DNA from: Candidatus Desantisiibacteriota bacterium
GTDB lineage: Bacteria > JACRDZ01
NCBI GenBank assembly: GCA_016209155.1
Contig: JACQWU010000330.1
Location: 1 to 6,031, forward strand
Reading direction: 5' to 3'
DNA length: 6,031 nucleotides
Shown here in pieces: positions 2,158 to 6,031 of the stretch. A program made the position numbers and the translations under genes. The stretch's first letter is position 1; the number at the start of each line of letters is the position of its first letter. The notes below the pieces were generated by a model, which did no database searches, was not told the DNA's origin, and saw only the letters and a list, made by a program, of their open reading frames with translations.

Positions 2158-2172
2158 ATACCGGATTATATT
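2142..2172. terminator. Possible bidirectional hairpin between convergent genes
   Basis: An inverted repeat (AATAT-T-ATCCG, 9-base loop, CGGAT-T-ATATT) spans the stop codons of both RNase G (TAA 2155-2157) and the convergent ATPase (TAA on the minus strand at 2166-2168). The stem is 10 pairs with one T-T mismatch. It is AT-rich and lacks a clean T-run, so terminator function is only inferred from its position between converging genes 8 bases apart. Confidence 0.3.
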
Positions 2173-3320
2173 ATTGGGCTGGAACTATCGATTAATTTTA
2201 CTTTTGTATTATATTGAGCTTCGAATGCTTTTTTATTTATATTTTGTTTTTTCCATTTTATTTCATAGGCAGATATGTTCTCTCCATCTTTAATAATTAA
2301 ATCAACTTCACTGTGTGCTTTTGATCTCCAGAAAAATAAATTTTTCATCTGCCCATTTAAAAGATTTTGTTTAGAAAATTCTGCAATTACCCAATTTTCC
2401 CATAATAATCCAATATCAGACCTTAAAGGATTAAGAGAAAATTCTTTTAAAAGAGCATTGCGTATACCTGTATCCCAAAAGAATATTTTGTGATTTTTGC
2501 TTATTTCCTTTCGCGGATTATTACTGAAAGCCGGTAAACGAAAAATAACATAAGTTTGTTCCAGAAGTTCAATATATCGCTCAACAGTTGGTCTTGCAAT
2601 TCCTAAATTAGTAGCCAATTCATTTATAGAAACTTCCGATCCGGCTTGATGCGCTAAAAGTAATAATAATCGTTTTATTAATCCATCTGTTTTTATAATT
2701 CCCAATTGAAGCACATCTTTTAATAAATAATCTGATACAAGATTTAAAAGATATTTTGATTTATCATCTGTGGTAAGCACTTCAGGATAATTCCCAAATA
2801 CCATACTTTGCAATAAAAGTGTATTTATTTGATTTTTGAAATTAACATCCAGTTGTTCATCACTATAAATATCAGAATACCATGATTTAGATACAATTAT
2901 TTCTTTAAATAAAAACGGCGGTAAAAATATTTTTTCATTTCTACCCGTTAAATTTTCACCGGCCTGGCTTATCAAATTTAAACTCGAAGAACCAAGTAAT
3001 ATTACTTTTGATTGTATTCTATAATCATACCAGCCTTTTACAATTCTGCATGTTTCCGGTTCTCTTTGAGCTTCATCAATAACAATATAATCGGGATTTC
3101 CCAGACTTCTTACTGCATCAATTGGCGGTAGTGTAGCACACGCAAGAAAACGATCCCTATCAACCTCGATATCTAAATTTAAAAAGATTGCTTTTTTATC
3201 TTTTAAAAAATAATTTATTAAAGTTGTTTTCCCTACCTGCCTTGCACCTATAATAATTAATATTTTTTGTGAATTAATGGATTTTTGTAATAAATCCTCT
3301 GCTGTTCTTTTGATATACAT
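2166..3320 (-). CDS. AAA-family ATPase with C-terminal DUF4143 domain
   Basis: A 384-residue protein of the common AAA_14 + DUF4143 type. Residues 20-37 hold a Walker A motif (GARQVGKT, 25-32), residues 78-85 a Walker B (YIVIDEAQ, D82/E83) and residues 106-113 a sensor-like strand (VILLGSSS). A winged-helix-like stretch follows at about 227-260 (SINELATNLGIARPTVERYIELL). The C-terminal part contains HSEVDLII (E338, D340) and YEIKW (E353, K355), resembling a PD-(D/E)xK nuclease-like core. The cellular role of the family is not settled; members are frequent in anaerobes, often as multicopy accessory genes, and toxin-like or DNA-related roles have been suggested. Length and domain order look complete. 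The start at 3320 is preceded by AAGGAT (3329-3334, minus strand) and a strong promoter. It converges on RNase G and is adjacent to the integron relic, with no evident functional link to either. Confidence 0.9.
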   Translation of the reverse strand: MYIKRTAEDLLQKSINSQKILIIIGARQVGKTTLINYFLKDKKAIFLNLDIEVDRDRFLACATLPPIDAVRSLGNPDYIVIDEAQREPETCRIVKGWYDYRIQSKVILLGSSSLNLISQAGENLTGRNEKIFLPPFLFKEIIVSKSWYSDIYSDEQLDVNFKNQINTLLLQSMVFGNYPEVLTTDDKSKYLLNLVSDYLLKDVLQLGIIKTDGLIKRLLLLLAHQAGSEVSINELATNLGIARPTVERYIELLEQTYVIFRLPAFSNNPRKEISKNHKIFFWDTGIRNALLKEFSLNPLRSDIGLLWENWVIAEFSKQNLLNGQMKNLFFWRSKAHSEVDLIIKDGENISAYEIKWKKQNINKKAFEAQYNTKVKLIDSSSPII

Positions 3321-3375: not shown

Positions 3376-3505
3376 GCGTATTATATACTTTCTCTATTCA
3401 TTGTTGTTGTTGTTATTATTAATATATAATCATATCACGATTAAATATTAAAACTTCCTGCAGATTTGCTGTATACGAAAAATTTGTTAGAAATCCAGCG
3501 GACTT

Positions 3506-3673
3506 TTAGCCTCTTTTACCGTCCTGCTCGGTACACAGTGGGTATAGATCATGAAGGATTAGCTGGTAGTAACGGAGCCATTTCAAATAATCCTTATGAA
3601 CAGAGACACCCCCTTATTTTTTTTTGAGGATAGCCTCATATGGCTCTAAAATGTTATCCGGTATATTGAGCAT
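3506..3673 (-). pseudogene. N-terminal remnant of an integron-type tyrosine integrase
   Basis: From an ATG at 3673 the minus strand reads MLNIPDNILEPYEAILKKK, then an in-frame TAA (3614-3616), then in the same frame GGVSVHKDYLKWLRYY and about 19 less recognisable residues before another TAA at 3506-3508. The LEPYEAILKKK and DYLKWLRYY strings resemble the N-terminal SAM-like core-binding region of the tyrosine recombinases associated with integrons in anaerobes (usually followed by LDFCHKY). The similarity fades after 3566. The catalytic domain with its Arg-His-Arg-Tyr residues is absent, since only ~55 of roughly 300 codons remain and the ATPase promoter lies where the rest should be. It is therefore inactive. 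Its orientation, pointing away from the cassettes with attI-like sequence behind it, is that of intI. The ribosome-binding site is weak (GGAT about ten bases upstream). The family call rests on motif recall, not alignment. Confidence 0.65.
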
Positions 3674-3729
3674 GGTATATTATCCACAAAACTATTCAAC
3701 ATGACAAAAAGTATATTATCTAAATAAAA

Positions 3730-3758
3730 AGCATAATAAATTCAAGTATTTATGTCAA
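3730..3758 (-). promoter_or_regulatory. Candidate integrase promoter (PintI)
   Basis: On the minus strand: -35 TTGACA (3753-3758, perfect consensus), a 17-base spacer, -10 TATGCT (3730-3735, 4 of 6). It would give a ~50-base leader before the integrase-remnant ATG at 3673. No LexA-type box was recognised over it. Confidence 0.5.
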
Positions 3759-3775
3759 GTTGAACTTAATTTATC

Positions 3776-3804
3776 TTGACGATGTCGACAATTTCTTATA
3801 TTAT
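3776..3804 (+). promoter_or_regulatory. Candidate cassette promoter (Pc)
   Basis: TTGACG (3776-3781), a 17-base spacer, TATTAT (3799-3804): 5 of 6 in each box with optimal spacing, reading into the first cassette, which begins only 24 bases after the -10. It is divergent from the candidate integrase promoter, with 17 bases between the two -35 boxes. This is the standard layout of an integron platform. Confidence 0.6.
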
Positions 3805-3822
3805 ATAGAAAACTATATAATA
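3799..3822. repeat. 10-bp perfect inverted repeat over the Pc -10, beside the attI-like core
   Basis: TATTATATAG (3799-3808) and CTATATAATA (3813-3822) are exact reverse complements around an AAAA loop. The left arm contains the whole -10 hexamer of Pc and the right arm ends 4 bases before the GTT of the recombination core at 3827. It could be an operator or an integrase-binding element of attI; the AT-only composition weakens the case. Confidence 0.4.
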
Positions 3823-3826
3823 ATAT

Positions 3827-3833
3827 GTTGGAT
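3827..3833 (+). other. attI-like recombination core (left boundary of first cassette)
   Basis: GTTGGAT matches the integron core consensus GTTRRRY exactly. Cleavage between G and TT would make the cassette begin TTGGATG, which is the exact complement of the left core of the attC at 4187. It lies just downstream of Pc and behind the integrase start, where attI is expected. Confidence 0.65.
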
Positions 3834-3853
3834 GTAACGCAGCATAATAACAA

Positions 3854-4063
3854 ATGAATTTAATGGCTTATATAAAACAGAGGAATTTTTTAATTCAAAT
3901 ATTTTCCAGAAAAAAATGAGAGAGAGAAAAACTCATTGAAGACGGCAGTTTTTTTAAATCTGTCATCGCTCATTTAAAGCCGAGAGGTTCAATTAATTTC
4001 ATTGGTTCAATAAATTCAACCAGTTTTCTGATATACCGAGAGAGTAAAACAGTACAAAAATAG
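3854..4063 (+). pseudogene. Decayed cassette ORF interrupted by TGA
   Basis: From ATG 3854 the frame reads MNLMAYIKQRNFLIQIFSRKK, stops at TGA (3917-3919), and continues in the same frame for 47 codons (EREKLIEDGSFFKSVIAHLK, then further residues to VQK) to TAG at 4061-4063. The two parts together would make a ~68-residue protein starting 26 bases after the cassette boundary, a typical place for a cassette ORF. There is no good ribosome-binding site. TGA recoding is unlikely, because the neighbouring propeller gene uses TGA as a normal stop. I do not recognise the product, and a chance open frame cannot be excluded. Confidence 0.25.
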
Positions 4064-4086
4064 CTCTTTAAAAATTCTTCCATTCA

Positions 4087-4281
4087 ATGAGCAGAACAAA
4101 TAGAGTTAAAAGCAAAAACAATTTCAGACAGCAGGCATCAAAGGCAGTTGTTAAAATAAAACGGTTAAAAAGTCGTTTTGCAGAGCATCCAACAGGTCAC
4201 TCCAGCCGACAACTAACACGGTGCTTCGAGCCTGAATTAAATAAATTTCAAACTTTTATCAGTCAGCAGCGTGAAGGTTAG
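4087..4281 (+). CDS. Small basic hypothetical ORF overlapping the attC site (doubtful)
   Basis: A 64-residue frame starting MSRTNRVKSKNNFRQQASK. The N-terminal half is rich in Lys and Arg, and the C-terminal half (from about residue 34, AEHPTGHSSRQLTRCF) is simply the attC palindrome translated. There is no clear ribosome-binding site (only AATTCTTCC upstream), no recognisable domain and no membrane segment. Cassette ORFs do sometimes run into their attC, so a genuine small cassette protein is possible, but about half of the frame is explained by recombination-site sequence. I give it a low probability of being a real gene. Confidence 0.25.
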   Translation: MSRTNRVKSKNNFRQQASKAVVKIKRLKSRFAEHPTGHSSRQLTRCFEPELNKFQTFISQQREG

Positions 4282-4305
4282 TTGCGGCTGAGCTTGGTGT
4301 TGTGG
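4187..4305 (+). other. attC recombination site (59-base element) of cassette 1
   Basis: The left core R'' is ATCCAAC (4187-4193, fits RYYYAAC); then 9 bases; then L'' CAGCCGACAACTAAC (4203-4217). The right side has GTTAGTTGCGGCTG (4277-4290), 8 bases, and the right core GTTGTGG (4299-4305). L'' and L' pair perfectly except for one extra A after CAGCCG, the same position as the extrahelical base in well-known attC sites of the AAGCCGACGCC type. Pairing continues inward (ACGGTGCT with AGCAGCGT) around an AT-rich loop. The ~119-bp length is in the range of long attC sites such as V. cholerae VCRs. The right core departs from GTTRRRY because its last six bases belong to the next cassette. Confidence 0.8.
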
Positions 4306-4533: not shown

Positions 4534-5508
4534 ATGCAAAAAAAATCGAGTTTACAGGAGAGAGCAGAGAGAGCTGCTTCCTTGTTCCCAGATACCGCCA
4601 GAAAACCGATAGTGATTGAGTTCGCTGGTACGCCAAAAGCTGGCAAAACAACAACCCTGAGCCAAATAAACGCTTTCCTCAAGAGATGCGGTTTCAAGGT
4701 TGAGATAGTGGTTGAACGGGCTTCTGTATGCCCGATCAAGGACAAGAAACACGTCAATTTCAACATCTGGACAGCATGTACTACACTGTCCCAGCTTCTT
4801 GAAAAAACGCAGACACCACCAAGACCAGAGGATCCGCAGGTACTGATTCTTGATCGTGGAATATTCGACTCGATCTGCTGGTTGCGTCTCATGGAGAGAC
4901 TTCAACGTCTCCGGCCATCCGAAAGGAAGATCGTGGAAAATTTCCTAGTTATTCCAGACTGGAGGGAGCGCATCACTGGCGTTATCCTCATGACGGCTTC
5001 TCCGACGGACTCAATGCAACGTGAGCAAGGGATGCTCCCTATTGTTGGTGCTAGAGGATCTATAATGAATGAGTCTGTGCTGGAACAGATGCTTCTTGTC
5101 GCTCGTGAGACAGCGAAAGACATGGAGACACTTTTCAGGGTGTTTGATGTAAGTACATCTGTTGGGGAGACCAAGAATAATCCTAAGCTGACAGCGGAGA
5201 AAGTTATTGAAATTGTCCTGTCACTTATCGAACAGCAACTTCAGGAAGATATCCTGCATCTGCCTAAGGACGAAGTTAAAAAAATGTTTAAAGGAGCAGC
5301 AACCATTGACGCGAGCATCGCTAAAGGACTTGTAGAAAGTTTCCAAAACTTCGGGAAGTATGCACCCAGGGAAGAAGTAGAAGCCAACACCGAACTAGTC
5401 CAAGCACTTCCAGTCGTGGTAGTACGCAATGCCTCGGGTAAGGTACTCCGCTTACGTCGGCGTGAGAGATCCGAAGGGAACCCTCTTCATGAAACCGCTT
5501 ACGTGTAA
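4534..5508 (+). CDS. P-loop nucleoside-kinase-like ATPase with truncated C-terminal Nudix-like domain
   Basis: A 324-residue frame with an excellent ribosome-binding site (AAGGGG, 4523-4528, five bases before ATG). Residues 27-40 form a Walker A (IEFAGTPKAGKTT, K38/T39). ERA at 61-63 and LILDRGIFDS at 104-113 resemble the ER and DR(S/G) motifs of deoxynucleoside and thymidylate kinase-like proteins. TASPTDSMQREQG (154-166) looks like the arginine-bearing lid. These suggest phosphorylation of a nucleotide-like substrate, but the substrate is unknown. From about residue 290 (LPVVVVRNASGKVLRLRRRE) a Nudix-like fold begins, and the frame then stops at TAA 5506-5508 just where the Nudix box should follow. 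The domain resumes out of frame at about 5511-5801. Base composition is clearly more GC-rich than the neighbours, indicating transfer as a cassette. The kinase part could still be functional. Confidence 0.75.
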   Translation: MQKKSSLQERAERAASLFPDTARKPIVIEFAGTPKAGKTTTLSQINAFLKRCGFKVEIVVERASVCPIKDKKHVNFNIWTACTTLSQLLEKTQTPPRPEDPQVLILDRGIFDSICWLRLMERLQRLRPSERKIVENFLVIPDWRERITGVILMTASPTDSMQREQGMLPIVGARGSIMNESVLEQMLLVARETAKDMETLFRVFDVSTSVGETKNNPKLTAEKVIEIVLSLIEQQLQEDILHLPKDEVKKMFKGAATIDASIAKGLVESFQNFGKYAPREEVEANTELVQALPVVVVRNASGKVLRLRRRERSEGNPLHETAYV

Positions 5509-5522
5509 CAACTGACAGTGTT

Positions 5523-5801
5523 GTGCTTCTAGGAGCGGTCTATCTGGAAGACGGCAAGTCATCTGTCAAGCATGTTGCAATTGTGTATGAATGGCGAGCC
5601 CCAACCGACGACGTCGAAGTCGCTCTAAGCAATGTTGAGTTCTTCGAGCGACGTGGGACATCTTTAAGTGGAAAGTTTGTGGACATTAAAGATATAGTGC
5701 AGGATATAACAGCAGACAAGAACGATGAGCCGTGGTCTGGTTATATTATCAGAGAGTTCCTTGCTAAAGAATATTCACAATTACAGCCTCGTCTGTTCTA
5801 G
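5523..5801 (+). pseudogene. Displaced C-terminal half of the Nudix-like domain
   Basis: A frame different from the upstream gene encodes LLGAVYLEDGKSSVKHVAIV and then a stretch including YEWRAPTDD, EFFERRGTSLSGKFVD and EPWS, ending QPRLF. This pattern (GAVY strand, HVAIVYEW strand, EF...SG.FV, WS) is what follows the Nudix box in Nudix hydrolases and has the same base composition as the preceding gene. The frame is open back to about 5499 with no ATG; a GTG at 5523 is the only nearby start and has no convincing ribosome-binding site. It therefore looks like the 3' part of the 4534 gene, separated by a deletion that removed the GX5EX7REUXEEXGU box and shifted the frame. A separately translated protein is less likely. 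Confidence 0.6.
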
Positions 5802-5833: not shown

Positions 5834-5898
5834 GAGTTAGTTTATTACCTTAAGAGAGATATAAAATTAAAAATAAAAAAACAGATAATTAAAATTAC

Positions 5899-6031
5899 AA
5901 TCGGGTAATCGGGGGCTCTAAGTCCCCCAATCCCCACACCACCTGGCATGCGGCTCCGCACCAGGCGGTTCATTGCAATCACTTTGGATAATGTCGTGCA
6001 ATCCACATTTCTCTTACACTTACCAGCCCTT
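5899..6031 (-). mobile_element. 3' end of a group II intron, continuing beyond the window
   Basis: On the minus strand the sequence carries a domain V hairpin (5938-5969), then a domain VI-like hairpin (GGGGG, loop ACTTAGAG, CCCCC, at 5911-5928) with purine-rich flanks, and an ending ATTACCCGATT at about 5899-5909. This D5-D6-CCCGAT arrangement is what I know from the 3' ends of bacterial group II introns that encode a reverse transcriptase/maturase. The RT gene should lie just past base 6031; the last minus-strand codons visible, AAG GGC TGG TAA (6031-6020), could be its end but cannot be claimed. The exact splice boundary is uncertain by two or three bases. The orientation is opposite to the cassettes. 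Confidence 0.6.
5938..5969 (-). ncRNA. Group II intron domain V
   Basis: The minus-strand hairpin has a 9-bp lower stem ACCGCCTGG/CCAGGTGGT, a two-base bulge (TG) on the 3' side, a 4-bp upper stem TGCG/CGCA and a 4-base loop GAGC. The lower stem contains CGC paired with GTG through a G-T wobble, four pairs below the bulge, matching the catalytic triad geometry of domain V. The loop is not a strict GNRA. Confidence 0.6.

Follow-up and report, generated by a model that had tools for sequence, protein, structure and literature searches.

A probable integrase-less integron remnant with its own attI, promoter and a single 472-bp cassette in Candidatus Desantisiibacteriota

The stretch of DNA analysed here (the window, all 6,031 nucleotides) comes from a Candidatus Desantisiibacteriota MAG of 352 short contigs that is about 79% complete and in which no 16S gene was detected, and it corresponds to contig C301 of that genome. 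We interpret part of it, with a probability of about 0.88, as the remnant of an integron that has lost its integrase gene and consists of an attI site, a promoter and one captured cassette of 472 bp. The platform, the cassette boundaries, the attC site and the ends of intI can be recognized from the DNA letters, as can an integrase gene on another contig that might act in trans; the history and activity of the locus are discussed conditionally below. The features are as follows.

3490-3552, minus strand: intI 3' end remnant, last 21 codons (tblastn and DNA identity).
3616-3708, minus strand: probable intI 5' end remnant, out of frame, reading away from the cassette (local alignment).
3628-3829, plus strand: truncated attI platform (mini-platform) of about 200 bp with two sharp edges (dispersed repeat, G^TT right edge).
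3730-3758, minus strand: Pint-like promoter TTGACA-17-TATGCT, directed toward the lost intI (consensus scan; kept in other copies).
3776-3804, plus strand: Pc-like promoter TTGACG-17-TATTAT, directed into the cassette (consensus scan).
3807-3829, plus strand: attI right end, ...AACTATATAATAATATG^TT, the most conserved stretch of the unit.
3828-4299, plus strand: integron gene cassette, 472 bp (boundaries from the attI unit and attC; start/R'' complement 8/8).
4187-4305, plus strand: attC site (held-out covariance model R3, model R2 and bottom-strand fold).
Parts of the attC: R'' 4187-4193; L'' 4203-4217; a long terminal loop; L' 4277-4290; R' 4299-4305.
Extrahelical bases of the attC: C4202 and A4209.

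The segment at 3628-3829 is, judged by its edges, promoter and remnants, a truncated attI platform. Its right edge lies at G^TT, where integron crossover takes place, and its final bases, AATAATATGTT, resemble the attI ends AATAAAATGTT published for class 2 and Shewanella integrons (PMC12901181, PMC9892861). As in an attI platform, minus-strand intI remnants are accompanied by a conserved Pc-like promoter, both hexamers of which are retained in eight of nine aligned copies. These copies resemble one another as far as ...TTGAC-N17-TATTAT...AAACTATATAATAATATGTT, beyond which they diverge, at the predicted crossover; their mean pairwise identity is mostly 0.5-0.7 across 3628-3829 and drops at both edges, and a leave-one-out profile constructed without the window recovered it with an E-value of 5.3e-24. 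The left edge of the unit falls inside intI and contains no known recombination site. The case for the Pint-like promoter rests on its conservation, because the total obtained in the promoter scan is not above chance. Beside it, at 3693-3722, lies an inverted repeat (TGGATAACAT...ATATTATCCA) that occupies the same place in other copies, being perfect in G001:C124 and degraded in the window, and that is a possible intI operator.

Two pieces of intI remain on the minus strand. Contig C158 carries an IntI remnant whose C-terminus matches the segment at 3490-3552 over 21 aa (tblastn, 86% identity, E 2.5e-8); at the DNA level the identity is 85% over 66 bases. The intact intI gene of G003:C35 aligns at its 5' end with the segment at 3616-3708 (z-score 6.1 against shuffles), and three other copies of the unit align to the intI 5' end with z-scores of 6.0, 3.7 and 3.7; the homology is modest, and we consider this segment a probable intI 5' remnant. 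Because minus-strand 3' and 5' remnants flank the deletion, intI appears to have run leftward and to have lost its middle. An integrase gene that reads away from the cassettes is typical of integron layout. With its cis intI reduced to the two ends the locus is not a complete integron, and the absence of an integrase in cis was overlooked in the first-pass annotation, as was the nature of 3490-3829, an intI remnant followed by attI. Elsewhere in the genome, contig C206 encodes an intact IntI (TIGR02249, 405.7 bits against a cut-off of 265; E 1.8e-75 to the solved integron integrase 2A3V), and no recognizable attI was found beside it. In the absence of a cis intI the cassette would be movable only by an integrase supplied in trans, for which the C206 protein is a candidate.

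The platform is not confined to the window, as a search of its own genome and of relatives showed that positions 3647-3832 recur on other contigs. Model R1 (E 0.001) identified nine copies in the same genome, some of them partial or interrupted by contig ends, three in G001 and two in G003, or 14 loci across three genomes; of the three same-phylum genomes, two contain the unit. At the same threshold, no copy was detected in G002 or in 17 other genomes. The first-pass annotation had reasoned that an excisable unit should vary among homologous genomes, and the DNA that follows the attI unit indeed differs at every copy; the cargo includes, as judged by eye, a HicA-like and a TIR-like protein. 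Same-strand attC sites are located downstream of the unit on C301 (the window), C74, G001:C124 (two) and G003:C12 (two), i.e. six sites as compared to about 0.3 expected by chance (a density-based estimate that allows 7 kb). No convincing attC emerged when the R'' partners of the other mini-platforms were sought by exact 7-mer matching, and several of these contigs end within 1-3 kb. In a tree of the copies, those from G001 and G003 group together (85/91) apart from the own-genome copies, with weak support elsewhere, which hints that the mini-platforms multiplied within each lineage.

The far end of the cassette is defined by 4187-4305, which its covariance score, fold and architecture identify as a true attC. 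It is an imperfect palindrome with the order R''-L''-L'-R' and AAC/GTT cores, and it folds on the bottom strand with an energy of -22.1 kcal/mol (z -3.97), a value that was equalled by none of 200 shuffles. A covariance-model score, proposed at the outset as a check on the site, proved clear: model R3, which was trained on 25 other attC sites of these genomes with the window excluded, assigns it 35.5 bits (E 2e-6), and the next best position in the window reaches at most 9.7 bits. Model R2, whose training set includes the window, scores it at 50.1 bits. A genome-wide search with fast filters yields a lower held-out score, 27 bits (E 0.06), a loss that is probably due to the long terminal loop. 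A first structural attC scanner missed it at a strict threshold and found it at a looser one, where null hits came mostly from a single GC-rich locus, and an Rfam scan of the window returned nothing relevant. Sites in these genomes share a common form (AAC, a GCACT-n-CA....G-A-like stretch, a loop, C....TGAG and GTT), and the L stem, in a set of 25 sites that excludes the window, shows 99.6% pairing and 77 double-change cells as compared to 24.6 in shuffles, numbers that measure consistency more than discovery because the sites were chosen partly for pairing.

The detailed structure of the attC agrees in part with its earlier description, which had the L'' and L' arms pairing over 14 bases with a single bulged adenine. 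The pairing and the bulge are present, with CAGCCG at 4203-4208, the extra A at 4209 and CAACTAAC at 4210-4217 facing the partner GTTAGTTGCGGCTG at 4277-4290; a second unpaired base, C4202, had been missed. C4202 and A4209 correspond to a bottom-strand G and T that are 7 nt apart on the R''-L'' arm. Canonical attC sites carry an extrahelical bottom-strand G followed by a T 6-8 nt on (PMC2727003), an arrangement that the predicted structure of the window site fits. The R' sequence, GTTGTGG, is a poor fit to GTTRRRY, matching only in the GTT and one R, a feature that had gone unremarked. This departure does not exclude an attC, because R' derives from flanking DNA and the other attC sites of these genomes likewise depart from the consensus.

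The first-pass annotation pointed to an exact 8-base complement between GTTGGATG (3827-3834) and CATCCAAC (4186-4193), and both are located at these positions, each occurring once in the window. Taken alone the complement is no evidence, as such matches commonly arise by chance; four GTT-start 8-base complements spaced 250-1200 bp apart are present in the window as compared to 2.2 expected. It counts as evidence because both partners were located independently by other means, and a match of the five variable bases at two independently fixed positions has a probability of about 4^-5, or 0.001. The rule behind it, that a cassette start pairs with the R'' of its own attC, holds in the array on contig C121 of the same genome (L106, 637-12914, at least nine attC sites) and in related arrays. 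Across 13 cassettes from C121, G003:C43, G003:C35 and the window, in which each start was set against the R'' of the same cassette's attC (the first G003:C35 pair being taken directly from the sequence), 56 of 65 variable positions match, and 20,000 shuffles gave a mean of 29 matches and never more than 47. The window cassette is among the perfect cases (8/8). Some neighbouring pairs in the other arrays mismatch, which is to be expected if an attC there has been overlooked or has disappeared. By eye, the ORFs of the C121 array include several toxin-antitoxin-like pairs.

Since the end of the attI unit, a true attC and the start/R'' rule agree, 3828-4299 can be assigned as a cassette in an integrase-less integron. 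The first-pass annotation had delimited the same 472-bp unit, and its extent from T3828 to G4299 stands, the start and the attC having been established here without recourse to the 8-base match. Integron cassettes usually carry an ORF, and cassettes that lack one are known. This cassette contains no intact ORF longer than 64 aa, and one frame consists of 21 aa and 46 aa split by a stop; family searches with the 64-aa ORF matched nothing, and relatives of the cassette DNA were found neither in plasmids nor, beyond the attI part, in related genomes. The cassette may be decayed or non-coding.

These features suggest how the locus could have formed. In the established mechanism, IntI recombines the two sites with attI in double-stranded form and attC as a folded bottom strand (PMC8946536). 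In the proposed scheme, an integron platform with intI reading leftward and attI and Pc facing rightward would have lost all of intI except its two ends. The attC bottom strand of a circular cassette, folded into a hairpin, would have recombined with the double-stranded attI between G and TT, inserting at G3827^T3828. Such a capture would account for GTTGGATG where the cassette starts and for the complementary CATCCAAC as the R'' of the far-end attC. Pc would now read into the captured cassette, which could exit as a 472-bp circle if an integrase acted on it in trans.

The most serious alternative, to which we give roughly even odds, is that the parts are genuine but fossilized, i.e. that no IntI recognizes them any longer and the cassette is frozen and decaying. 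The reduction of the cis intI to its ends, the broken or absent ORFs of the cassette and its off-consensus R' are all compatible with such a fate, and non-cognate IntI/attI pairs are usually inefficient (PMC8946536). However, no part of the unit is better preserved among divergent copies than the promoter and attI core, the start/R'' match remains 8/8, and the genome has an intact IntI. It is improbable that an integrase inserted the cassette at a chance chromosomal attG-like target instead of an attI; insertions of this type have been reported (attG sites cited in PMC12901181 and PMC12444791), but the target here is no unique sequence: it recurs as a unit and carries paired promoters and intI remnants. 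We consider it just as improbable that 3628-3829 is an unrelated dispersed promoter element that ends at the cassette start by coincidence. A protein search detects no intI remnant at most copies, and several copies have no attC on their short contigs, as this would predict, but the intI 3' remnant is in place, the 5' end aligns to intact intI, and same-strand downstream attC sites occur at four loci, against a chance expectation of about 0.3 sites. Similar 8-base complements are common in such AT-rich DNA, but the idea that no integron exists and that both hairpin and complement arose by chance is scarcely credible given the held-out attC score, the leave-one-out recovery of attI (E 5.3e-24), the fold (z -3.97) and the coincidence of the positions with the attI breakpoint.

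As an integrase-less integron remnant, the locus resembles several known systems. It shares with sedentary chromosomal integrons a divergent-promoter attI, a G^TT-joined cassette, an attC with R''/L''/L'/R' and two extrahelical bases, and the start/R'' complement; it differs in the deletion of intI, in having one cassette only and in the end of the contig soon after. Like a CALIN, it has an attC-bearing cassette without a cis intI that would be movable only in trans, but it retains an attI and promoter of its own, and it has one attC where a CALIN is defined by two or more attC sites without intI; the contig ends 1.7 kb beyond the site. An attI-bearing CALIN has been reported from a Shewanella prophage (PMC9892861). 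Pseudogenes constitute about a third of intI genes (Nemergut et al., PMC2426708), integrase losses are documented in Treponema (PMC3607928), and in integrons with intI pseudogenes an inactivated integrase likewise lies beside surviving recombination sites; here, in contrast, many truncated platforms with similar edges are dispersed in one genome and its relatives. Insertions at attG and delta-attI cassettes (PMC12901181) also show IntI using non-standard sites, including attI fragments, whereas the window unit has both promoters as well as remnants of intI and lies at the start of an array rather than at cassette ends.

Within this single window, the finding is ordinary integron anatomy; the wider point is the dispersal of attI-promoter units, given that attI is taken to adjoin its intI and to occur once per integron. 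Integrase-less arrays and intI pseudogenes are known, but the papers searched, few of them from subscription journals, contain no account of dispersed truncated attI-Pc units of similar extent such as the approximately nine in this genome and the five in its two relatives. A tentative and rather doubtful extension is that they form a distributed integron, in which truncated attI-Pc mini-platforms would have multiplied across the chromosome in members of this uncultured phylum, each docking and expressing cassettes separately while a single distant IntI serves them in trans. If one IntI does serve all units, cassettes could be expressed at many chromosomal sites simultaneously, and tools that seek intI or attC clusters alone would overlook the dispersed attI sites.

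Three other features of the window deserve mention. A repeat at 5890-6031 also occurs at G000:C206:7-155, C124:5111-5243, C329:1820-1923 and C289:2004-2088; its common end, ...CCCCCGATTACCCGATT, is the stop point of three contigs, including the one with the intact intI, and the repeat resembles the 3' end of a minus-strand group II intron. An RT-like ORF and a group II intron structure (RF02012) are also present on C329, and introns are known to associate with integrons. At 4534-5801, an NTPase-like gene (weak AAA_28 match) is followed by a 92-aa ORF in another frame, and the two look like one frameshifted gene. Relatives of the NTPase (58-65% identity) were found in Nitrospira, Magnetominusculus and gammaproteobacterial MAGs and none in the same phylum; model R2 detected no attC with the relatives in Nitrospira and the gammaproteobacterial MAGs. 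Finally, an AAA_14/DUF4143 ATPase is encoded on the minus strand at 2166-3320 and matches the candidate defence family PDC-S01 (E 6e-109).
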